A stretch of 64,000 nt of DNA from assembly GCF_014235185.1 (NCBI RefSeq), contig NZ_CP060131.1:2673501-2737500 (forward strand), read 5' to 3'. The notes under the pieces were generated by a model. That model was not told the DNA's origin, made no database searches, and worked only from the letters and a program-made list of their open reading frames with translations. The stretch's first letter is position 1. Each line of letters starts with the position of its first letter. The stretch is from Pseudonocardia petroleophila (GTDB lineage: Bacteria; Actinomycetota; Actinomycetes; Mycobacteriales; Pseudonocardiaceae). Below, in pieces: positions 46,569 through 62,115 of this stretch. The position numbers and the translations under genes were made by a program.

Positions 46569-47408
46569 TCACTGCTCGCGCAGTCGGACCACCCGGCCGT
46601 TGAGGGGCTGCAGGTCCCGGGCGTCGCCGTCGGGGAAGAGCTCGCGGACCTCGGAGATGGTCTCGTCGGCGACCGAGCCGGGGGTGCGCAGCACCAGCCA
46701 CGACACGCCCTCGGTGTTGGGCTTCGTGGTGAGCGACCCGGGATAGCGCAGGGTCGACAGGTCCGCGGGCAGGTCGCCGGCCAGGTCCGCCCCGGCGATC
46801 GCGATCTCCTCGCCGCACTCCTCGGGCAGGTCGTCGAGGACGCGGTCGGCCGTGGTTCCCCCGGGTCCGCCGCCGTCGAGGAACCGCCCGATGACGAGCG
46901 TCTCGCCGTTCGGACCGGCGTGCACGAAGTGCTGCTCGACCGCGTACCGGCGCCCGTCGAGCGTGTGCTCGGAGGCGGTGTGGAAGTGGAACTGCTTGAG
47001 CTCGTAGCGGACGCCGTCCAGCGAGATGCCCGCCGCGCCCGCGGGGACCTCGGCCTCGATCGTCTCCTCGCGCCCGCGGGTGGTGCAGCCGGTCGGGTCG
47101 TCGGGGTCGCGGCTGACGTAGCGGACGGACAGGTCGACCGACCGCGGGTAGTCGACGACGAGCTCCGGCAGCTCCGGGGCCGGGACCGCGTCCGCCGTGC
47201 TCAGGGCGACCGGGCTCTGCTGCGGTCCCGCGGGGGGTGCGGGGCTCGTCGACGCCGCTCCGGACGGCGCGGTGCCCGGCGGGGCCGGTGACGGGTCGGT
47301 GGCGCAACCGACCAGCCCGGGGGTGAGGAGGAGGGCGGGGACGGCGGTCAGGAACGAACGGCGGGTGGGCACGACGTCGAGCTCCGGTTCCAGGTCGGTG
47401 TCACTCAT
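46569..47408 (-). CDS. Alpha-carbonic anhydrase, exported lipoprotein
   Basis: A 279-aa alpha-class carbonic anhydrase (reversible CO2 hydration). A Tat-type motif RRSFL and lipobox LVGC mark it as an exported lipoprotein. The zinc-site region LKQFHFHTASEHTLDG and EQHFVHAG gives the three His ligands. QSPVAL and RYPGSLTTKPNTEGVSW are further family motifs. It would act on the outside of the membrane. ATG 47408 is used. Located beside cell-wall genes but without an evident operon. Confidence 0.93.
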   Translation of the reverse strand: MSDTDLEPELDVVPTRRSFLTAVPALLLTPGLVGCATDPSPAPPGTAPSGAASTSPAPPAGPQQSPVALSTADAVPAPELPELVVDYPRSVDLSVRYVSRDPDDPTGCTTRGREETIEAEVPAGAAGISLDGVRYELKQFHFHTASEHTLDGRRYAVEQHFVHAGPNGETLVIGRFLDGGGPGGTTADRVLDDLPEECGEEIAIAGADLAGDLPADLSTLRYPGSLTTKPNTEGVSWLVLRTPGSVADETISEVRELFPDGDARDLQPLNGRVVRLREQ

Positions 47409-54512: not shown

Positions 54513-55997
54513 CTACCCGGAGAACGCCGCCAGGAAGCGGTCCCGGAAACCCTCCATCGGCCAGACCGGGGCGTCCGGGGCGGGTCGCAGGCCCGGCGTC
54601 CAGTCCCAGGAGGCGACGCGGTCGAGCACCGCGGCGTCGCGGGTCACCACCGAGATCGGGACGTCCGCCGTCGCGCCACCGCCGGTGACGGCCGCGGACG
54701 GCTGGTGGTCACCGAGCACGAGGAGCACGAGGTCGTCGTCGCCGTGGGTCCGCACCCAGGACACGATGCTGTCGAGGGAGTAGGCGATCGCCCCGGCGTA
54801 CTCCGCGGGCCCGGGCGGCACGCCCCGGTAGACCGACCCGTCCCCGACGGCCGCCCAGTCCAGCACCGGCGGCACGTACGCCCACGGCGCGTGGCTGCTG
54901 ACCAGCGCGATCTCGGCCATCAGCGGGGCGTGCGCCGCGTCGAGCTCGGCGCGCTGGAACGCGGCGAGGGTGTACTGGTCGGGCACCGTGGCCCAGCCGT
55001 GGTCCGGCCCGCGGTAGCCCAGTGCGGCGAAGTCGTGGACGGTGTCGTAGCCGTAGAAGCCGGCCTCGGGCCACTCCCGGGTCGTGCCTGGCATGACCCC
55101 GACCGTCCGCCAGCCGGCGTCGCCGAACGCGCTGCTCAGCGTCATCCGGTCGCTGCCGACGAGCGCGGCGTGGCGCCGCTGGTCGTCGACGCGCAGGCCG
55201 GAGAGGAACGTGGCGTGGGCGAGCCAGCTGTTGCCGCCCACCACCGGTGAGGTGAGGAAGCCGCTGCGGGTGGCGAACCCGGCGGCGGCGAGGTCGCGGG
55301 TGCCGGCGTCGAGGTGCGGGCCGACGAGGTCCACGGCGTCGCGGCCGTAGCTCTCCACGAACGCGACGACGACGTCCTTGCCCGCCAGCGCCGCGAGCAG
55401 CCCGTCGGCGCCGCGGTAGGGGTCGGCGGCCAGCTGCGCGGCGAAGACCTCGGCGTCGGCGAGGCCGTCGCGGACCTGGACCGCGTGGTCGCGGACGAGC
55501 ACCGCGGCGCCCGCGGAGGCGACCGGGGCGCCGAGCAGCGCGGCGACCACCCAGACCGGCGTCAGCACGGCGACCGCGCGGGCGGCGGTGCGCCGGTGCG
55601 CCACGGCGAGCCGGGCCAGGTGCCGCACGGCCAGCGCGACGCCGACGACCAGCGCCAGCGCGGCGACGGCCGCCGCCGTCGCGACCCCGACCGCCGCGGG
55701 CACCCCCGCCGACCCCGCCACGAACTCGACGCCCGCCGCGACCGAGGTGGCGTCGAGCAGCGGGTCGAACGGGCGGGCCAGCACGGCGCGGAACCCGGCG
55801 TCGAGGACGGCCAGCACGGCGACGACCCCCAGCACGGTCCCGGCGACGGTCGCCGCGGGCCGCACCGCCCTGGCCGGGAGCAGCAGCGCCACGGCGAGCA
55901 GCGCCAGCCCCTCGACGGGCAGCCGCAGGATCCCGAGGGCGTCGCGCGGCACGACCATCGCGGCCAGCACCACGACCGCGGCGAGCGCGGTCCTCAC
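54513..55997 (-). CDS. Membrane sulfatase/phosphatidyl-transfer-like enzyme
   Basis: A 494-aa protein with about five hydrophobic segments in the first ~180 residues and an extracellular alkaline-phosphatase-fold domain after. The metal/catalytic elements are VAFVESYGRD, the likely nucleophile segment GGNSWLAHATF, VSSHAPW and LGDHQP. The plan resembles LTA-synthase/phosphoethanolamine-transferase enzymes, which act on lipids outside the membrane; whether this one transfers or hydrolyses is not clear. GTG 55997 overlaps the stop of the preceding gene by 4 bp, so it is coupled to the CDP-alcohol phosphatidyltransferase. It forms the minus arm of the divergent cluster. Confidence 0.87.
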   Translation of the reverse strand: MRTALAAVVVLAAMVVPRDALGILRLPVEGLALLAVALLLPARAVRPAATVAGTVLGVVAVLAVLDAGFRAVLARPFDPLLDATSVAAGVEFVAGSAGVPAAVGVATAAAVAALALVVGVALAVRHLARLAVAHRRTAARAVAVLTPVWVVAALLGAPVASAGAAVLVRDHAVQVRDGLADAEVFAAQLAADPYRGADGLLAALAGKDVVVAFVESYGRDAVDLVGPHLDAGTRDLAAAGFATRSGFLTSPVVGGNSWLAHATFLSGLRVDDQRRHAALVGSDRMTLSSAFGDAGWRTVGVMPGTTREWPEAGFYGYDTVHDFAALGYRGPDHGWATVPDQYTLAAFQRAELDAAHAPLMAEIALVSSHAPWAYVPPVLDWAAVGDGSVYRGVPPGPAEYAGAIAYSLDSIVSWVRTHGDDDLVLLVLGDHQPSAAVTGGGATADVPISVVTRDAAVLDRVASWDWTPGLRPAPDAPVWPMEGFRDRFLAAFSG

Positions 55998-56695
55998 CGG
56001 GCGCGCCACAGGAACACCACGCTCTGCCCGAACGACCACACGAGCAGCACCAGCGCCGCCGCGACCACCCAGCCCGGCGCCCCGGCGACCGCCGCCACCA
56101 GCACGATCCCCTGCACCGCGGCCACGGCCTTCGCCGAGTACCGCACCGGCAGGGCCCCGCGCAGCCACGGCAGCAGCCGGCCCGCCGCCGCGTACGCGTA
56201 GCGCATCAGCCCGATCGCGAGCACCCACGGGCCGAGCAGGACGGCGACGTGCGCGCTGAGCACGAGCAGCAGGACCGCGTCGACCTCCATGTCGAACCGG
56301 GCCCCCAGCGCCGAGGCCGTCCCGGTGCGCCGGGCCACCCGCCCGTCGACGGCGTCCAGGGCCAGGGCGACCGACGCGACGGCGACGATCGGCACCGGTC
56401 CCGCCCCGTCGACCACCAGGGCCAGCACCCCTCCGACCAGTGCGGCCCGCGCGAGCGTCACCAGGTCGGCCGGCCCGAGCGCGTCGGTGCCGGCCCGGCG
56501 GGCCGCGGTGTCGAGCAGGGTCCACAGGCCAGCGGCGAAGAGCAGCCCGGCGGCCCACCCGACCGGGCCGAGGCCGGTGAGCGCCGTCAGCAGCGCGAGC
56601 AGCACGACCTGGGCGGCGGCTCCGCACGCCTGCTGGGTGGGTCGCTGCCGGGATACGGTCGTCGCGGCTCGGGTGTGCACACCAGGGACACGCAT
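55994..56695 (-). CDS. CDP-alcohol phosphatidyltransferase family protein
   Basis: A 233-aa membrane protein with six or so hydrophobic segments and the complete signature D-x2-DG-x2-AR-x8-G-x3-D-x3-D: DAVDGRVARRTGTASALG followed by ARFDMEVDA (both final Asp present). The family attaches an alcohol headgroup to a CDP-lipid. Which alcohol is unknown. ATG 56695 is used. Only 30 bp separate it from the divergent dehydrogenase start, so promoters must lie inside the opposite coding regions. It makes one operon with the sulfatase-like gene. Confidence 0.92.
   Translation of the reverse strand: MRVPGVHTRAATTVSRQRPTQQACGAAAQVVLLALLTALTGLGPVGWAAGLLFAAGLWTLLDTAARRAGTDALGPADLVTLARAALVGGVLALVVDGAGPVPIVAVASVALALDAVDGRVARRTGTASALGARFDMEVDAVLLLVLSAHVAVLLGPWVLAIGLMRYAYAAAGRLLPWLRGALPVRYSAKAVAAVQGIVLVAAVAGAPGWVVAAALVLLVWSFGQSVVFLWRAR
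56672..56683. promoter_or_regulatory. Perfect palindrome GGTGTGCACACC in the divergent start region
   Basis: 12 bp, fully symmetric, inside the first codons of the phosphatidyltransferase gene and 43 bp upstream of the dehydrogenase GTG. A TACGGT box at 56654-56659 could be the -10 for the plus operon. A single operator could therefore control both arms; this is inferred. Confidence 0.5.
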
Positions 56696-56725
56696 CCGGG
56701 GCCGCCGGAGTTCAGAGGAGATCGG

Positions 56726-57700
56726 GTGGACCGCAGTGCTCGGGCCTTCTGGGTCGCCGCGCCGGGCCACGGGGAGATCCGCGACGTCGAGCTGACGCCC
56801 CCCGGACCGGACGACGTGCTCGTCCGCACGCTGACCTCCGGCGTCAGCCGCGGCACCGAGACGCTGGTGTTCCGCGGCGGCGTGCCGCACAGCCAGCACG
56901 CGGTGATGCGCGCACCGTTCCAGGACGGGGAGTTCCCCGGGCCGGTGAAGTACGGCTACCTCAACGTCGGCGTCGTCGAGCTGGGCCCGCCCCACCTGCT
57001 CGGGCGCACCGTGTTCGGCCTGTACCCGCACCAGACCCGCTGGGTGGTCCCGGCCGGTGCCGTCACCGTCGTCCCCGACGACGTCCCGCCGGCCCGTGCG
57101 GTGCTGGCCGGCACCGTCGAGACCGCCGTGAACGCGCTGTGGGACGCCGCGCCGCTGGTCGGCGACCGGATCGCCGTCGTCGGGGCCGGGATGGTCGGCT
57201 GCTGCGTGGCCGCGGTGCTCGCCGGGTTCCCGGGCGTGCGCGTCGAGCTGGTCGACGTCGACCCCGCCCGCGCCGCGATCGCCGACGCGCTGGGCGTCGG
57301 CTTCGCCGCCCCGGCCGCCGCCGCGGGGGAGTGCGACCTCGTGGTGCACGCGAGCGCCACCGACGCGGGGCTCGCGCGGAGCCTGGAGCTGCTCGCCGTC
57401 GAGGGGGAGGTGCTGGAGCTGAGCTGGTACGGCGACCGCGCCGTCACCGTCCCGCTGGGCGCGGGCTTCCACTCCCGCCGGCTGAGCATCCGCAGCAGCC
57501 AGGTCGGGATGGTCGCGCCCGCCCGGCGCGGCCGCCGCGGCTACGCCGACCGCCTCGCGCTGGCGCTGCGCCTGCTCGCCGACCCGCGCTACGACGCGCT
57601 CGTCGCCGACGCCGTGCCCTTCGAGGAGCTCCCGCGGCTGCTGACCCGCCTCGCCGCCGGTGAACCGTTCGCGCCGTGCGTCCGTGTCCTCTACGGCTGA
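56726..57700 (+). CDS. Zinc-type alcohol dehydrogenase-like protein
   Basis: A 324-aa member of the medium-chain dehydrogenase superfamily. The catalytic domain is short, with [16 protein letters not shown] and [11 protein letters not shown]. The Rossmann domain has [15 protein letters not shown]. The typical catalytic zinc ligands of alcohol dehydrogenases (Cys-x-GxHE) are not visible, so it may use another chemistry. GTG 56726 follows AGAGGAG. It is the first gene of a six-gene plus-strand run. A substrate cannot be assigned. Confidence 0.85.
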
Positions 57701-57729
57701 GTCCTTCGGCCGCACGGAAGGGGCAACCG

Positions 57730-58128
57730 TTGTTCAGCATCACCGTCCGCGACCACGTGATGGTCGCGCACAGCTTCCGCGGCGCGGTCTTCGGACCCGC
57801 GCAGCGCCTGCACGGCGCCACGTTCGTCGTCGACGCCACGTTCCGCCGGCCCGACCTCGACGCCGACAACATCGTCGTCGACATCGGGCTGGCCACCACC
57901 GAGCTCAAGGCCGTCCTCGCCGACCTCGACTACCGCAACCTCGACGACGAGCCCGCCTTCGCCGGGATCAACACGTCCACGGAGTTCCTGGCGAAGGTCG
58001 TCGCCGACCGGCTGGCCGACCGCGTCCACGCCGGCGCGCTCGGCGAGGGCGCCCGCGGGCTGGCCGGGATCACCGTCGCGCTGCACGAGTCGCACGTGGC
58101 CTGGGCGAGCTACGAGCGGTCCCTGTGA
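57730..58128 (+). CDS. 6-carboxytetrahydropterin/pyruvoyl-tetrahydropterin synthase-like protein, altered active site
   Basis: A 132-aa PTPS/QueD-fold protein: [15 protein letters not shown] at the start, [13 protein letters not shown], and [12 protein letters not shown] at the end. Two changes stand out: the Cys of the usual C-x2-LHGH is Ala (AQRLHG), and the second His of LHGH, a zinc ligand, is Ala (LHGAT). The first His and the C-terminal Glu/His are kept. Normal PTPS or QueD chemistry is therefore unlikely. TTG 57730 is the likely start, after GAAGGGG. It overlaps the glycosyltransferase by 4 bp. Confidence 0.85.
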
Positions 58129-59168
58129 GGGTCCACGTCGTCGTCCCCGGCGACGTCGACGACGCCGGTCGCCCCAGCGGCGGCAACACCTACGACCGCC
58201 GCGTGATCGCCGGGATGCGGGCGGCCGGGGTCGCGGTGGAGCAGATCGCCGTCGCCGGGCGGTGGCCGCGGCCGTCGGTCCCCGAGCGCGGCGCGCTGCA
58301 GCGCGCGCTCGCCGCCCTGCCCACCGGGTCGACGGTGCTGATGGACGGCCTCGTCGCGTGCAGCGTGCCGGACGTCGTCGTTCCGCAGTCGCGCCGCCTC
58401 GAGATCACGGTGCTCGTGCACCTGCCGCTGGGGGACGAGGTGGGCGCCGCCGATCTCGCCCACCGCGAGCGCGAGGCGCTGCACGCCGCGGCCGCCGTCG
58501 TCGCCACCAGCCCGTGGACGGCGCGGCGGCTGCGCGAGGTGCACGACCTCGGGTCCGTCGAGGTCGTCACCCCCGGCGTCGACCCGGCCCCGGCCGCGGC
58601 CGGCACCGACGGCGTCGGCCGGCTGCTGTGCGTCGGCTCCGTGACGCCGACGAAGGGCCAGGACCTGCTGGTCGAGGCGCTCGCCGACGTGGCCGACCGG
58701 CCGTGGAGCTGCGACCTCGTCGGCCCGCTCGACCGGGCCCCCGCGCACGTCGCCGACGTCCGCGCGGCGATCTCCCGGTACGGGCTCGACGGCCGGGTCC
58801 GGATGCCGGGGGCCCTGGTCGGGGCCCCGCTCGCCGCCGCGTTCTCCGGGGCCGACCTGCTCGTGCTGCCCTCGCGCGTCGAGGCCTACGGGATGGTCGT
58901 GACCGAGGCGCTGGCCCGCGGCATCCCGGTGCTCGCCACCGACGTCGGCGGGGTCCGGTCCGCGCTCGGCGGCACCGGCCTGCTCGTCCCCGCCGCCGAC
59001 GCCATGGCCCTGTCGATGGGCCTGATCCGCTGGTTCGGCCGGTCCGACCTGCGCGCGGAGCTGCGCGCGGGTGCGCAGGCCCGCCGCGCCGAGCTGACCG
59101 GGTGGGAGGTGACGTCCCGATGCCTGATCACGATCCTGGACCGCGCGCGGAGTGGGACGCCCGCCTGA
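58125..59168 (+). CDS. Glycosyltransferase family 4 protein
   Basis: A 347-aa GT-B glycosyltransferase: [17 protein letters not shown] in the acceptor domain, [20 protein letters not shown] in the donor domain and the EX7E region [20 protein letters not shown], typical of GT4. It transfers a sugar from a nucleotide or lipid donor. GTG 58125 overlaps the preceding stop (GTGA). Its last 49 bp overlap the methyltransferase start. The acceptor is unknown. Confidence 0.9.
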
Positions 59169-59953
59169 GCGACGCGGGCTCGCCGGTCTGCACCCCGGAC
59201 TGGCTCGCCCTGCGCGAGCCCGCCGACGCCGACGCCCGGTCGGCGGAGCTGGCCGGCCGCGCCGCGGCGCTCGCGCCGACCGTCGTCCGCGACCTGGGGT
59301 GCGGCACCGGCTCGATGGCCCGCTGGCTCGCGCCGCTGCTGCCCGGGTCGCCGCGCTGGGTCCTGCACGACCGCGACCCCGCGCTGCTGGCCAGGGCCGT
59401 CGCCGACACCCCGTCGGCGGAGGGCGCCGCGGGCGACCTCACGACCCTGCGCGCCGCCGACCTCGCCGGGACGTCGCTGGTCACCGCCTCGGCGCTGCTC
59501 GACCTGCTCACCGCCGACGAGGTCGACGCGCTGGCCGCCGCGTGCGCGGGTGCCGGGTGCGCGGCGCTGCTGGCCCTGTCGGTGACGGGGGAGGTCGGGA
59601 TCGTCCCGCCGGACCCGCTCGACGCCGTCGTCGCCGCCGCGTTCGACGCCCACCAGCGCCGGACCGTCGACGGGCGCACGCTGCTCGGGCCGGACGCCGG
59701 GCCCGTCGCCGCGGCGGCGTTCGCCCGGCACGGCATGACCGTGCAGACCCGACCCAGCCCGTGGCGGCTCGGGGCGGACCGGGCCGAGCTGGCCGAGGAG
59801 TGGCTGCGCGGCTGGATCGCCGCCGCGGTCGAGCAGCGGCCCGACCTCGGCCGGGAGGCGGGCCGCTACCTGCGGCGCCGGCTGGTCGCGCGGGCGGCCG
59901 GGGTCCTGCGGGTGACCGTCGGGCACGTCGACGTGCTGGCGGTCCCGTCGTGA
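59120..59953 (+). CDS. SAM-dependent methyltransferase (class I)
   Basis: A 277-aa class I methyltransferase with motif I VVRDLGCGTGSMARWL (about residues 55-70). ATG 59120 overlaps the glycosyltransferase by 49 bp and is preceded by GGGAGG. The N-terminal part is short and the C terminus is helical and basic. It could methylate the lipid or sugar made by its neighbours; this is inferred. Its stop overlaps the next start by 4 bp. Confidence 0.88.
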   Translation: MPDHDPGPRAEWDARLSDAGSPVCTPDWLALREPADADARSAELAGRAAALAPTVVRDLGCGTGSMARWLAPLLPGSPRWVLHDRDPALLARAVADTPSAEGAAGDLTTLRAADLAGTSLVTASALLDLLTADEVDALAAACAGAGCAALLALSVTGEVGIVPPDPLDAVVAAAFDAHQRRTVDGRTLLGPDAGPVAAAAFARHGMTVQTRPSPWRLGADRAELAEEWLRGWIAAAVEQRPDLGREAGRYLRRRLVARAAGVLRVTVGHVDVLAVPS

Positions 59954-60804
59954 AGGTGCTGCTGGGGGCCGTGGTGCTGGTCGCGGTGCTGGTGTGGGCC
60001 GGCACCGACGCGGTGCTCACCGGGCTGGCCGCGATCGACGCCCCCGCCGTGCTCGCCGCACTGGCCGTCGGGCTGCTCGGGGCGCTCTGCGCGGGCGCCC
60101 GCTGGTGCCTGGTCGCCCGCGGCCTGGGGCTGCGGCTGCCGTTCGGCACCGCCGTCGCCGACACCTACCGCGCCGTCGCCCTCAACTCCGTCCTGCCCGC
60201 CGGCGTGCTCGGCGACGTGCACCGCGCCGTCGCCCACGGCCGCACCGACGCCCGCGGGCTGCGCGCCGTCGTGCTGGAGCGGACGGCGGGACAGGCGGTC
60301 GTCGTGGTCGCCGGGCTGCTGGTGCTGCTCGGGCACCCCGCGCTGCTCGGGGGGCTGCTGCCCGGGCTCGGCGTCGGGGCCGTACTCCTGCTGGTGGCGT
60401 CCCGGATCCCGAGGGTCCGGTCGCTGCTGGCCCCCTTCCTCGCCGACGCCCGGCGGCTCACCCGTCGCACCGCCCTCGCGGTCGTCGCGCTGTCGCTCGC
60501 GGCCACGGCCGGGTACCTGGTGCTGTTCGTCGTCGCCGCGCGGACCGCGGGCGTGACCGCGCCGGTGGGCGAGCTGCTGCCGCTGCTGGTGGTGGCCCTG
60601 CTGGCGATGGTGCTGCCGCTGGGTGTCGGGGGGTTCGGGCCGCGCGAGGCGGCCGGCAGCGTCGCGTTCGCCGCGGCCGGGCTCGGCGCCGCGCAGGGCC
60701 TCACCACCGCCGTCGTCTACGGGGTGCTCGCCACCATCGCCTGCCTGCCCGGGCTCGCGGTCCTGCTGCGGCCCGCCGCCCGGGCCGAACCGGTCCCGTG
60801 CTGA
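59950..60804 (+). CDS. LPG-synthase TM-type membrane protein (UPF0104 family)
   Basis: A 284-aa polytopic membrane protein with about 8 hydrophobic segments, matching the lysylphosphatidylglycerol-synthetase N-terminal/UPF0104 family: RWCLVARGLGLRLPFGTAV, NSVLPAGVLGDVHRAV and a helix pair with LPLGVGGFGPREAAGS. The family includes flippases and related lipid-handling proteins. The soluble aminoacyl domain of MprF is absent, so lipid flipping or binding is the likely role. GTG 59950 overlaps the preceding stop (GTGA). Confidence 0.88.
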   Translation: MKVLLGAVVLVAVLVWAGTDAVLTGLAAIDAPAVLAALAVGLLGALCAGARWCLVARGLGLRLPFGTAVADTYRAVALNSVLPAGVLGDVHRAVAHGRTDARGLRAVVLERTAGQAVVVVAGLLVLLGHPALLGGLLPGLGVGAVLLLVASRIPRVRSLLAPFLADARRLTRRTALAVVALSLAATAGYLVLFVVAARTAGVTAPVGELLPLLVVALLAMVLPLGVGGFGPREAAGSVAFAAAGLGAAQGLTTAVVYGVLATIACLPGLAVLLRPAARAEPVPC

Positions 60805-61361
60805 TCCTCGTCCGCCACGGGCAGACCACCGCCAACGCGCGCGGCCTGCTGTGCGGGCGCGCCGACCCGCCGCTGACCGACCTCGGCTGCCGGCAGGCCC
60901 GCGCGCTGGCGGCGGCACTGCCGCGGCCGGTCCGGGTGGTGTCGAGCCCGCTGGGCCGGGCCCGCGCGACCGCCGCCGCGTTCGCCCCGTCGGCCGTCGA
61001 GGTGGACGAGCGCTGGACCGAGATGGACTACGGCCGCCTCGACGGCGCCGCACCCTCCGACGTCGACGCGGCGACCTGGCGGCGCTGGACGACCGACCCG
61101 GACTTCGTGCCCGCGGGCGGGGAGTCGCTCACCGCCGTCGGGATCCGGGTGCGGGAGGCGTGCCGGGAGCTGGCGGCCGACGCCGCCCGGGGCGACGTCG
61201 TGGTCGTCAGCCACGTCTCGCCGATCAAGGCGGCGGTGGCGTGGGCGCTGGGCGTCGACGACACCGCGGCGTGGCGGCTGTACCTCGCCGACGCCGGCGT
61301 GTGCCGGATCGACACCCGCGGCGAGCTCCCGCGCCTGCTGACCTTCAGTGATCCGGGCTGA
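60798..61361 (+). CDS. Histidine phosphatase family protein
   Basis: A 187-aa histidine phosphatase: LVRHGQTTANARGLLCGRAD supplies the catalytic His (RHG motif), and the second His is in VVSHVSPIKA. The Arg pair and Glu of the active site are present (SSPLGRARAT, EMDYGRLDG). The family dephosphorylates small metabolites such as sugar phosphates. GTG 60798 overlaps the previous gene by 7 bp. It ends the six-gene operon and overlaps the convergent FkbM gene by 17 bp. It could remove the phosphate from a pathway intermediate. Confidence 0.9.
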   Translation: MLILVRHGQTTANARGLLCGRADPPLTDLGCRQARALAAALPRPVRVVSSPLGRARATAAAFAPSAVEVDERWTEMDYGRLDGAAPSDVDAATWRRWTTDPDFVPAGGESLTAVGIRVREACRELAADAARGDVVVVSHVSPIKAAVAWALGVDDTAAWRLYLADAGVCRIDTRGELPRLLTFSDPG

Positions 61362-62115
61362 GCCGCGCGTAGACGTCGCCGGAGCGGCCGAGCGGGCGGA
61401 ACCGGTCCAGCAGCGCGCGCAGGCCGTCGGCGTCGAGCCACTCGTCGGAGGCGAGGGTCATCGTCTCGACGGGGGAGTAGTTGTAGGTGTACGCGCCCCC
61501 GTGCCGTCGGCCCAGCGCGTCGACGAGGTCGAGCGCGGCCAGCGCGGCGTCGTGCGCGGGCGGCAGGTACTCGAACGACAGCGCGCGCACCGGCCGGCCC
61601 AGCCCGCGCAGCACGTCCAGCTCGAACCCCTCGACGTCGATCTTCACGAACGCTGGCTCGCCGTGCTCGGCGATCAGGGCGTCCAGCGTCGTCACCGGGA
61701 CCTCGACGGAGCGGTCCCAGCGCACGCGGGCGAACCCGCGGTCGGCGCCGACCGTTCCGATCCACTCCGGCGACATCGACGACACCGTCGGCGTGGCGCT
61801 GGACAGGCCCAGCCGTGCGGTGCCCACCTGCGCGCCGACGGCGACCGGGGCGATCACGACCCCGTCGTCGCGGCCGAAGAGCAGGCGCAGCACCGTGAGG
61901 CAGTCGGGCTGCGGCTCCAGCGCGACGACCCGCACCCCCAGCTTCCGCCACGCGCGGACGCGGCTCCCGACGTGTGCGCCGACGTCGAACGCGATGTCGC
62001 CGGGCCCCAGGAACCGCCCGTAGAACGCGACGATCCGGCGGTGCCGCCCGGGGATGCCGTGGTACATCGCGAGCGAGCGGACGACGCCCCGCACCCGGGC
62101 GAGCCGGCTAGCCAA
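61345..62115 (-). CDS. FkbM-family methyltransferase
   Basis: A 256-aa class I methyltransferase of the FkbM family: motif [17 protein letters not shown] (about residues 44-59), and [18 protein letters not shown] near the middle, the conserved Asp/Glu of this family. FkbM proteins methylate O-atoms of sugars or antibiotics. The start is TTG 62115, overlapping the upstream stop, or GTG 62094. It is convergent with the six-gene operon, and its product could act on the same molecules. Confidence 0.87.

Follow-up and report, generated by a model that had tools for sequence, protein, structure and literature searches.

Gene content of the locus

Open reading frames and Pfam matches in the window (the whole 64,000-nucleotide stretch of Pseudonocardia petroleophila DNA that was analysed) confirmed that all eight genes of a compact divergent cluster are present at positions 54513–61361, where a preliminary description of this DNA had placed them; start codons were picked by eye on the basis of overlaps and homology. 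The minus strand carries genes coding for a sulfatase/LTA-synthase-like membrane enzyme (54513–55997; PF00884, 8.9e-8) and a CDP-alcohol phosphatidyltransferase (55994–56695; PF01066 (CDP-OH_P_transf), 1.5e-12). The plus strand codes for a BchC-like dehydrogenase of the MDR family (ADH, 56726–57700; best NCBIfam match TIGR01202 BchC, 46 bits against a cut-off of 291.25), a catalytically altered PTPS-fold protein of the SCO6650 type (57730–58128; PF01242, 1.1e-22), a GT4 glycosyltransferase with an E-x7-E motif (58125–59168; PF13692 (Glyco_trans_1_4), 3.2e-25), a class I SAM-dependent methyltransferase (59120–59953; PF13649 (Methyltransf_25), 3.8e-6), an LPG_synthase_TM/UPF0104 flippase-like membrane protein (59950–60804; PF03706, 1.3e-24) and an alpha-ribazole-phosphatase-like histidine phosphatase (60798–61361; PF00300 (His_Phos_1), 5.2e-47). 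A ninth gene, coding for an FkbM-family methyltransferase on the minus strand (61345–62115; PF05050, 7.6e-17), adjoins the end of the cluster and is likely a further member that had been overlooked before. The tight packing described earlier was found at five of the seven junctions, which overlap by 4, 4, 49, 4 and 7 bp, and at the divergent starts of the CDP-alcohol transferase and ADH genes (30 bp between them), but the ADH and PTPS genes are separated by a 29-bp gap. Pfam backed seven of the eight family names given previously, the exception being "zinc-ADH", as no zinc-ADH family of Pfam matched the window protein at E 0.001.

Altered active sites of the PTPS homologue and the dehydrogenase

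The closest solved relative of the PTPS homologue was SCO6650 of Streptomyces coelicolor (PDB 3d7j; 1.6e-70 across the full 132 aa). The two proteins belong to the same family and both have HGA in place of HGH, and the GPAQ..HGAT signature of SCO6650-type homologues is present in the window protein; GPAQ was found in 112 of 124 copies, the remaining 12 being four bacterial variants and eight haloarchaeal copies. The paper describing the SCO6650 structure is said to report that PTPS activity, zinc and the catalytic triad are all absent. With a structure already solved for this homologue, the earlier designation of the system as undescribed is only partly right, although SCO6650 is listed as an uncharacterised protein and the cluster-wide, cross-domain reading is new here. 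SCO6650 itself probably sits in the same kind of cluster, as Streptomyces loci do.

With QueD and 6-pyruvoyltetrahydropterin synthase the window family shares the PF01242 fold and, in 124 of 124 copies, the Glu by which the 2-amino-4-oxo ring of the pterin is anchored. The catalytic Cys ahead of HGH, however, was present in 0 of 124 copies, and the Asp-His pair was nearly absent from the 116 bacterial copies (Asp in 4, His in 1), compared with 20 of 20 for each of Cys, Asp and His in the canonical PTPS set. The third zinc-binding His was replaced by Ala or Val in all 116 bacterial copies, including that of the window, and was retained in all eight haloarchaeal copies. The QueD equivalog model scored 36.7 bits on the window protein (cut-off 89.25). 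Because the catalytic Cys has been lost though the Glu is kept, the homologue is not QueD, and it lies outside the canonical PTPS/QueD enzymes.

Among 121 copies of the ADH, no Cys was conserved at ≥93%, and in an alignment with 4cpd a Ser stood opposite the Cys of GICGSD, in a weakly scoring stretch. A zinc-dependent alcohol dehydrogenase was rejected on the grounds that the Cys ligands of the catalytic zinc are not conserved among these 121 copies. In plasmid records, these PTPS and ADH proteins are mostly labelled as 6-carboxytetrahydropterin synthase (queuosine) and zinc-binding alcohol dehydrogenase, respectively; such automatic labels are unsupported by the active sites. E253 and E261 of the GT4 glycosyltransferase were invariant in 10 aligned copies and conserved in 114, and neither the GT4 nor the methyltransferase profile matched a substrate-specific relative.

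Conservation of the cluster in bacteria and haloarchaea

Gene neighbourhoods were compared for the 80 most similar actinobacterial loci (the best PTPS matches), with partner genes scored within 10 kb of the PTPS gene. The ADH was found in 80 of these loci, the GT4 glycosyltransferase and the methyltransferase in 78 each, the CDP-alcohol transferase in 74, the LPG/UPF0104 protein in 73 and the sulfatase in 14. FkbM was present in two, both from Pseudonocardia (L007 and L030), and the histidine phosphatase gave tblastn matches in three, in one of them at the cluster position (L030, P. eucalypti, 66% identity). AlkZ, an unrelated window neighbour used as negative control, was found in 0 of 80. 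By these counts, the arrangement is not due to chance and the core genes are those for PTPS, ADH, GT4 (not found in some clusters) and methyltransferase; the LPG/UPF0104 gene is frequent, while the sulfatase, an optional member, and the histidine phosphatase, a local one, do not belong to the core. Most of the eight genes originally grouped together thus recur, the last two being the exceptions. The PTPS gene was present in 57 of 394 genomes sampled from the class to which the window belongs, the genome under study included.

The order ADH–PTPS–(GT4)–methyltransferase was also found in alphaproteobacteria, one gammaproteobacterium and haloarchaea, where the methyltransferase gene lies immediately downstream of the PTPS gene. 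Four window proteins have relatives in the cluster of Rhizobium sp. SL42: the sulfatase (39% identity across 500 aa, E 1.8e-86), the CDP-alcohol transferase, the flippase-like LPG_synthase_TM protein (35%, E 8.4e-25) and the FkbM methyltransferase (41%, E 1.3e-56; 43% and 3.6e-55 for the Palleronia cluster). Since the neighbourhoods recur well beyond Pseudonocardiaceae, the objection that the genes might not co-occur elsewhere, raised in the preliminary description, falls away. The same data bear on the view that the cluster is of a common glycolipid or teichoic-acid-like kind, in which the PTPS gene would be a misleading and metabolically meaningless relic. This would account for the CDP-alcohol transferase, LTA-like, GT4 and flippase-like genes, and a RibA search of the genome gave no match inside the window, but with the ADH beside PTPS in 120 of 123 loci (all picked via PTPS), PTPS identities of 79–90% among the 80 best matches from several genera, and RibA-type genes linked in most loci (see below), we consider it very improbable.

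Linkage to early riboflavin-type genes

Genes coding for RibA, RibD, creatininase or GTP cyclohydrolase (GCH) III were linked to the cluster in 71/80, 15/20, 10/15 and 4/8 loci of four sets. No first-step gene was seen in the stretch at 9/80, 5/20, 5/15 and 4/8 loci, respectively, where some stretches end at contig ends and three of the five loci in the third set are stand-alone PTPS paralogues. The window cluster contains no RibA, RibD or creatininase gene, and elsewhere the same genome codes for three Tyr-type RibBA proteins and for a RibD reductase that shares 52% identity with one from a cluster. The suggestion that the PTPS-fold protein handles an unusual precursor has therefore gained support from linked genes that lie outside the window.

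None of the 28 linked RibA copies with the active-site Tyr (IRAY motif) was accompanied by a creatininase gene, and a RibD reductase was present in all 28 clusters; the Tyr is replaced in 55 of the 83 linked copies, all 55 of which had a linked creatininase, and RibD was not found in 48 of these clusters. C62, C73 and C75, which we take to be zinc ligands, were present in ≥93% of the 83 copies. Spoonamore is said to have reported in 2006 that replacement of the Tyr in RibA leaves a formylaminopyrimidine product that is not deformylated, as in GCH III. The RibA type changed at least four times on the best ADH+PTPS tree, two of these changes being on supported branches, versus once on the RibA tree, so that the 83/83 pairing represents one event there; an independent-pairs sign test on the ADH+PTPS tree rested on two supported pairs (p 0.5). 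Because of this difference between the trees, RibA paralogues have probably been exchanged between clusters, with the creatininase travelling along. The one creatininase scored matched MftE best (141 bits, cut-off 172; ArfB 37 bits), and in Sinorhizobium a creatininase-family protein has been demonstrated to be a formamidase for the formylaminopyrimidine intermediate (accessible part of PMC9478397). In three Haloarcula clusters, a gene for GTP cyclohydrolase IIa/III, which is unrelated to RibA, immediately precedes ADH–PTPS–methyltransferase (PF05165, 3.4e-81 for the copy in L133). The best solved matches of the RibD profile (8 copies) were the diaminopyrimidine phosphate reductases 6p8c (3.1e-40) and 2azn (1.5e-39), and the Rhizobium copy, the one scanned with Pfam, had the RibD_C domain only and no deaminase domain.

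By family, these first enzymes are those of the early riboflavin pathway (RibA, archaeal GCH III/ArfB, RibD reductase and the bacterial formamidase BrbF, as far as the accessible part of PMC9478397 describes them), but here they are linked to PTPS, ADH, GT4, methyltransferase and CDP-alcohol transferase genes instead. The linked RibA and RibD-type reductase genes would also be in line with a second route to riboflavin or deazaflavin (F420), which might for instance supply secreted flavins; such a route is hardly credible given the lack of a deaminase domain in the scanned RibD, and neither lumazine or riboflavin synthase nor RibB, RibH, RibE or an F420 ring-synthase was named near the plasmid clusters in their incomplete gene table.

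A candidate GTP-derived pyrimidine/pterin pathway

On balance we favour the view that the cluster serves an uncharacterised GTP-derived pyrimidine/pterin pathway, of which the window would hold the decorating and membrane half. The pathway looks primarily like a pyrimidine/pterin route to which glycosylation, methylation and lipid steps have been joined, rather than like the lipid pathway containing one unusual pterin gene that was proposed previously. A gene set common to bacteria and haloarchaea thus probably uses early vitamin B2 steps to feed a sugar-bearing, perhaps membrane-attached pterin-like compound, the pathway probably starting with the conversion of GTP to a diaminopyrimidine. Judging from the enzyme families, GTP would be opened to a formylaminopyrimidine nucleotide and then deformylated to 2,5-diamino-6-ribosylaminopyrimidinone phosphate, either by Tyr-type RibA alone, by non-Tyr RibA together with a creatininase-family formamidase or, in some haloarchaea, by GCH III. 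A deaminase-less RibD-type reductase would then turn the ribose into ribitol, and because the 2-amino group would be retained, this second step is where the pathway would depart from riboflavin. In the window's genome, both steps may be supplied in trans by the RibBA proteins and RibD reductase encoded elsewhere.

For the third step, we infer that the Glu of the PTPS-fold protein grips the 2-amino-4-oxo ring and that the protein aids a pterin-like ring closure without the Cys or the usual metal site, the MDR dehydrogenase working on the ribityl or a carbonyl partner. Alternatively, the PTPS-fold protein might act on the unreduced diaminopyrimidine, carrying out an Amadori rearrangement and closing the ring to give a pterin of the dihydroneopterin type, in which case RibA (with the formamidase) and PTPS would replace GCH I. 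PTPS and GCH I have a common T-fold, the Glu anchor is retained with the Cys lost, and the ribose may stay intact in the 48 creatininase-type clusters in which no RibD reductase was seen. The reductase found in every Tyr-type RibA cluster, however, would remove the ribose carbonyl that the rearrangement needs, which makes this alternative doubtful.

Following ring closure in the favoured pathway, sugar and methyl groups would be attached by the GT4 glycosyltransferase and the methyltransferase(s). As with cyanobacterial BGluT and Chlorobium PGT, the sugar would be transferred to a pteridine by a GT-B enzyme, but the substrate of those enzymes, biopterin, is made via GTP cyclohydrolase I, whereas the cyclohydrolases linked here are RibA or GCH III. 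The CDP-alcohol transferase would finally attach a lipid, phosphatidyl or archaetidyl, at a hydroxyl of the ribityl or sugar part (or at the corresponding phosphate), with the flippase-like protein plus, where present, the sulfatase-like enzyme acting at the membrane. The catalytic motif of CDP-alcohol phosphotransferases, D-x2-DG-x2-AR-x8-G-x3-D-x3-D, is complete in the window protein (residues 114–139) and conserved across 9 aligned copies; it is shared with PssA, PgsA and the inositol-phosphate CDP-alcohol phosphatidyltransferases, but the NCBIfam equivalog models scored far below cut-off for the window protein.

The product is best read as a glycosylated, methylated ribityl-pyrimidine or pterin that is probably attached to a lipid, although such attachment may not be universal, as the CDP-alcohol transferase, LPG and sulfatase genes are missing from some clusters. 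Another reading is that the cluster makes a pterin or pyrimidine glycoside that is soluble and exported, comparable to the pterin glycosides of cyanobacteria or green sulfur bacteria, and that the sulfatase, the CDP-alcohol transferase and the flippase-like protein serve a neighbouring lipid function; this would be consistent with the clusters in which no CDP-alcohol transferase was seen (6/80 loci and Methylosinus L090). Both glycosides of pterins and the glycosyltransferases for them have been described (accessible parts of PMC13259868 and PMC5683033), and the GT4 profile matched tetrahydrobiopterin glucosyltransferase at 2.3e-17, ranking below 23 other GT-B enzymes among the matches listed. 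We regard a soluble product as rather unlikely in view of the complete catalytic motif, the frequency of the CDP-alcohol transferase in the 80 loci, its presence in proteobacterial and haloarchaeal clusters as well, and the overlap of its gene with the RibD gene in Thiodictyon.

That actinobacteria, proteobacteria and haloarchaea have all kept this gene set together indicates a genuinely useful metabolite, whose structure seems not to have been described. With a probable start, a probable intermediate and a short enzyme list at hand, the role of SCO6650-type PTPS homologues, an old puzzle, becomes directly testable. As a tentative and more specific proposal, which we hold with limited confidence, at least two bacterial phyla and haloarchaea might make a lipid in which an N8-ribityl-pterin (or ribityl-pyrimidine), carrying sugar and methyl groups, is anchored in the membrane. 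Its synthesis would involve a PTPS-fold enzyme that lacks the normal catalytic site, and the CDP-alcohol transferase would use the ribityl group as its alcohol; it would be a third end-use of GTP opening, beside flavins and deazaflavins. If the product is a pterin lipid, it would represent a class of membrane cofactor not seen before. On this proposal, the cytochrome b561 genes found linked in five proteobacterial clusters would suggest that the cofactor is redox-active.

Gene content of the cluster

All eight packed genes of the preliminary description were found in the window, and the family names given to them were borne out by Pfam and NCBIfam, except that the 'zinc-ADH' (hereafter ADH) is a distant MDR protein. 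Its top NCBIfam match was BchC (46 bits, cut-off 291.25), no conserved Cys was found in the ADH family, and an identity as zinc alcohol dehydrogenase was rejected, as the metal ligands give it no support. The motif of the CDP-alcohol transferase (CDP-OH) is complete and the E-x7-E motif is kept in GT4, while searches of solved structures with the methyltransferase and GT4 returned generic relatives only. A ninth gene, coding for an FkbM methyltransferase (61345–62115), lies head-on to the cluster end. Elsewhere in the window, an alpha (eukaryotic-type) carbonic anhydrase is encoded at 46569–47408 on the minus strand (PF00194, 6.3e-22).

Recurrence of the cluster

GTDB species genomes were scanned with the PTPS protein, yielding at least 385 confirmed candidates, of which the best 80, all close actinobacterial relatives (PTPS identity 79–90%), were taken. 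Gene presence was scored by tblastn with the window proteins and the relatives' cluster proteins as named queries instead of by open-frame clustering, in which shadow frames in high-GC DNA blurred the clusters. Among these best 80 of at least 385 loci, ADH was present in 80, GT4 and the methyltransferase in 78 each, CDP-OH in 74, LPG (UPF0104, flippase-like) in 73, the sulfatase in 14 and FkbM in 2, all of which are lower bounds because contig ends cut some loci. The counts were unchanged with the window queries alone, and the negative control AlkZ, the gene of which flanks the cluster in the window, was found in 0 of the 80. Histidine phosphatase was present in three of the same best 80 relatives, in one of them at the cluster, and was rejected as a core member.

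In an even sample of the class, 57 of 394 genomes, the window's own included, carried PTPS. A divergent set of 20 stretches from 19 of these 57 genomes, mostly more divergent hits, contained ADH and GT4 in 20 each, CDP-OH in 14, LPG in 13, the methyltransferase in 12 and the sulfatase in 10, counted anywhere in the stretch; a few methyltransferase hits are far from PTPS and may be other proteins. The plasmid set (20 of 25 hit records plus three further haloarchaeal ones, L137 and L194 being records without annotation) comprised 15 bacterial and 8 haloarchaeal loci, with ADH in 12 and 8, respectively. The three bacterial loci without ADH are stand-alone Streptomyces PTPS paralogues (L088, L129 and L138), beside which no cluster gene was found and which form a second, separate context for the PTPS family. 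These paralogues adjoin genes coding for MBL-fold, cupin and BTAD-regulator proteins, and in two of the three a YbaB-like gene is also nearby. Over all 123 loci (including the best 80 of at least 385), ADH was present in 120, GT4 in 113, the methyltransferase in 109, CDP-OH in 100 and LPG in 92. The genes do co-occur outside the window, and the proposal of a common pathway, for which a lack of co-occurrence elsewhere had been named as refutation, is not refuted. Unlike most other clusters read, L060 and L187 have approximately 2.4 kb and 6.6 kb, respectively, of extra DNA between ADH and PTPS.

The PTPS protein has an altered active site

Among the 116 bacterial PTPS copies, including that of the window, Ala stands in place of the catalytic Cys and Ala or Val in place of the third zinc His, and most have Asn/Thr-Tyr where the Asp-His pair would be. 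The eight haloarchaeal copies (L133, L134, L189–L192, L195 and L196) keep the three-His (HSH) site and have Glu for Cys, indicating that loss of the Cys is general and loss of the His bacterial; all 124 copies retain the Glu anchor. Canonical PTPS proteins of the same phylum (those 20 of 30 fetched that have HGH in the central open frame) showed the Cys, the three His, the Asp-His pair and the Glu in 20 of 20, and on a tree the cluster and canonical proteins are split by one change. A role in QueD or biopterin synthesis was rejected on these active-site residues. The closest solved structure to the window PTPS is that of S. coelicolor SCO6650 (3d7j), for which PTPS activity, zinc and the triad are all reportedly absent according to the structure paper. 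In a paper on this family (PMC5041015), the PTPS-V subfamily is described as being of unclear function. In our literature search, no listed title or opening of an abstract described the cluster, which is weak evidence of absence with subscription papers mostly outside its scope; PMC2853524 and PMC3610822 each name SCO6655 or SCO6652 once.

Candidate genes for the first pathway steps

Among the best 80 of at least 385 loci, 65 contained a RibA-type GTP cyclohydrolase II, 52 a creatininase-family protein and 26 a RibD-type reductase, with at least one of the three in 71. At least one of these or a GTP cyclohydrolase III (GCH III) was found in 15/20 divergent, 10/15 bacterial plasmid and 4/8 haloarchaeal loci. 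In three Haloarcula clusters a GTP cyclohydrolase IIa/III gene immediately precedes ADH-PTPS-methyltransferase (PF05165, 3.4e-81 for the L133 copy, the sole one scanned); this protein family is unrelated to RibA and has the same first reaction. In Haloarcula sinaiiensis, a creatininase-family gene lies approximately 6 kb from PTPS, and no first-step gene was seen in the stretch read of the other four haloarchaeal loci.

We read the system as a GTP-derived pyrimidine/pterin pathway with a product that bears sugar and methyl groups and is often attached to a lipid. The first two steps are predicted from family function and co-occurrence; how the ring forms, what ADH does and the attachment to a lipid are inferred. 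The earlier idea of an unusual lipid pathway linked to pterins is thus partly supported.

The Rhizobium cluster RibD protein consists of RibD_C alone, without a deaminase domain, and the top matches of a profile of eight cluster RibD copies were diaminopyrimidine phosphate reductases (6p8c, 3.1e-40; 2azn, labelled putative phosphoribosylaminouracil reductase, 1.5e-39). If the intermediate were reduced but not deaminated, its 2-amino group would be retained and could be held by the PTPS Glu. A duplicate flavin or F420 route was rejected, as the RibD protein tested has no deaminase, and RibB, RibH and RibE were not named among the annotated neighbours read.

RibA type is paired with the creatininase

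At the position that is Tyr in classical (E. coli) RibA, the 83 linked RibA proteins have Tyr (28), Met (42), His (10), Leu (2) or Cys (1); a Tyr/Met rule for RibA type was reportedly set out by Spoonamore et al. 2006, a work cited in PMC3509567. All 28 loci with Tyr-type RibA contain RibD and lack the creatininase in the stretch, whereas all 55 non-Tyr loci contain the creatininase, seven of them together with RibD, a pairing first apparent in 67 loci. On the RibA tree, RibA type and creatininase change once each, and the pairing is therefore one ancient event; it is strong, yet statistically not independent. On the ADH+PTPS tree (FastTree), RibA type changes at least four times, two of them forced by supported branches, and a sign test on the two supported pairs was not significant (p 0.5). 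Comparison of the two trees suggests that RibA paralogues were probably swapped among clusters, the formamidase candidate probably moving with the RibA type that would need it. A Sinorhizobium creatininase-family protein is a demonstrated formamidase for the formylaminopyrimidine intermediate (PMC9478397). The one cluster creatininase scanned scored 141 bits against MftE, below the cut-off of 172, versus 37 bits against ArfB, which counts against the formamidase assignment.

Membrane-type genes in proteobacterial clusters

On a plasmid of Rhizobium sp. SL42, one side of the cluster holds sulfatase, LPG, FkbM, CDP-OH and ribA and the other side ADH-PTPS-GT4-methyltransferase-RibD-cytochrome b561. 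The window proteins are 39% (sulfatase, E 1.8e-86), 40% (CDP-OH, E 3e-32), 35% (LPG, E 8e-25) and 41% (FkbM, E 1.3e-56) identical to these copies. The clusters of Peteryoungia and Rhizobium SSA_523 resemble that of SL42, as does that of Agrobacterium, in which only FkbM is missing. Of the genes searched for, Neorhizobium L193 contains ADH-PTPS-GT4-methyltransferase alone, and CDP-OH, LPG and sulfatase were not seen in the Methylosinus L090 and SC52 L131 loci. Lipid-type genes thus accompany the PTPS block in two phyla, although some clusters lack them. An MdoH-like membrane glucosyltransferase adjoins the L090 and L193 clusters, where it perhaps substitutes for other sugar or membrane parts.

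The genome of the window and sister clusters

A search of the window found no RibA, RibD or creatininase in its cluster. The genome encodes three full RibBA proteins, each of the Tyr type. It also has one creatininase-family protein with 39% identity to a cluster copy and a stand-alone RibD reductase (C1:3040473, L092) that shares 52% identity with a cluster copy from Micromonospora. The sister cluster of a Pseudonocardia MAG (L007) carries RibA and RibD directly after LPG, and together with the genomic RibBA and RibD reductase this makes a supply of the first-step enzymes in trans plausible. In P. eucalypti (L030), histidine phosphatase follows LPG, as in the window. By eye, the L092 reductase is followed by an apparently separate deaminase-domain gene, a split RibD. 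Two further RibBA-like genes of the genome (G000:C1:3951124, L005, and G000:C1:1680066, L006) match the cyclohydrolase model over its first half only, come after a frame resembling, by eye, a flavin reductase, and may code for RibB-only or regulatory proteins.
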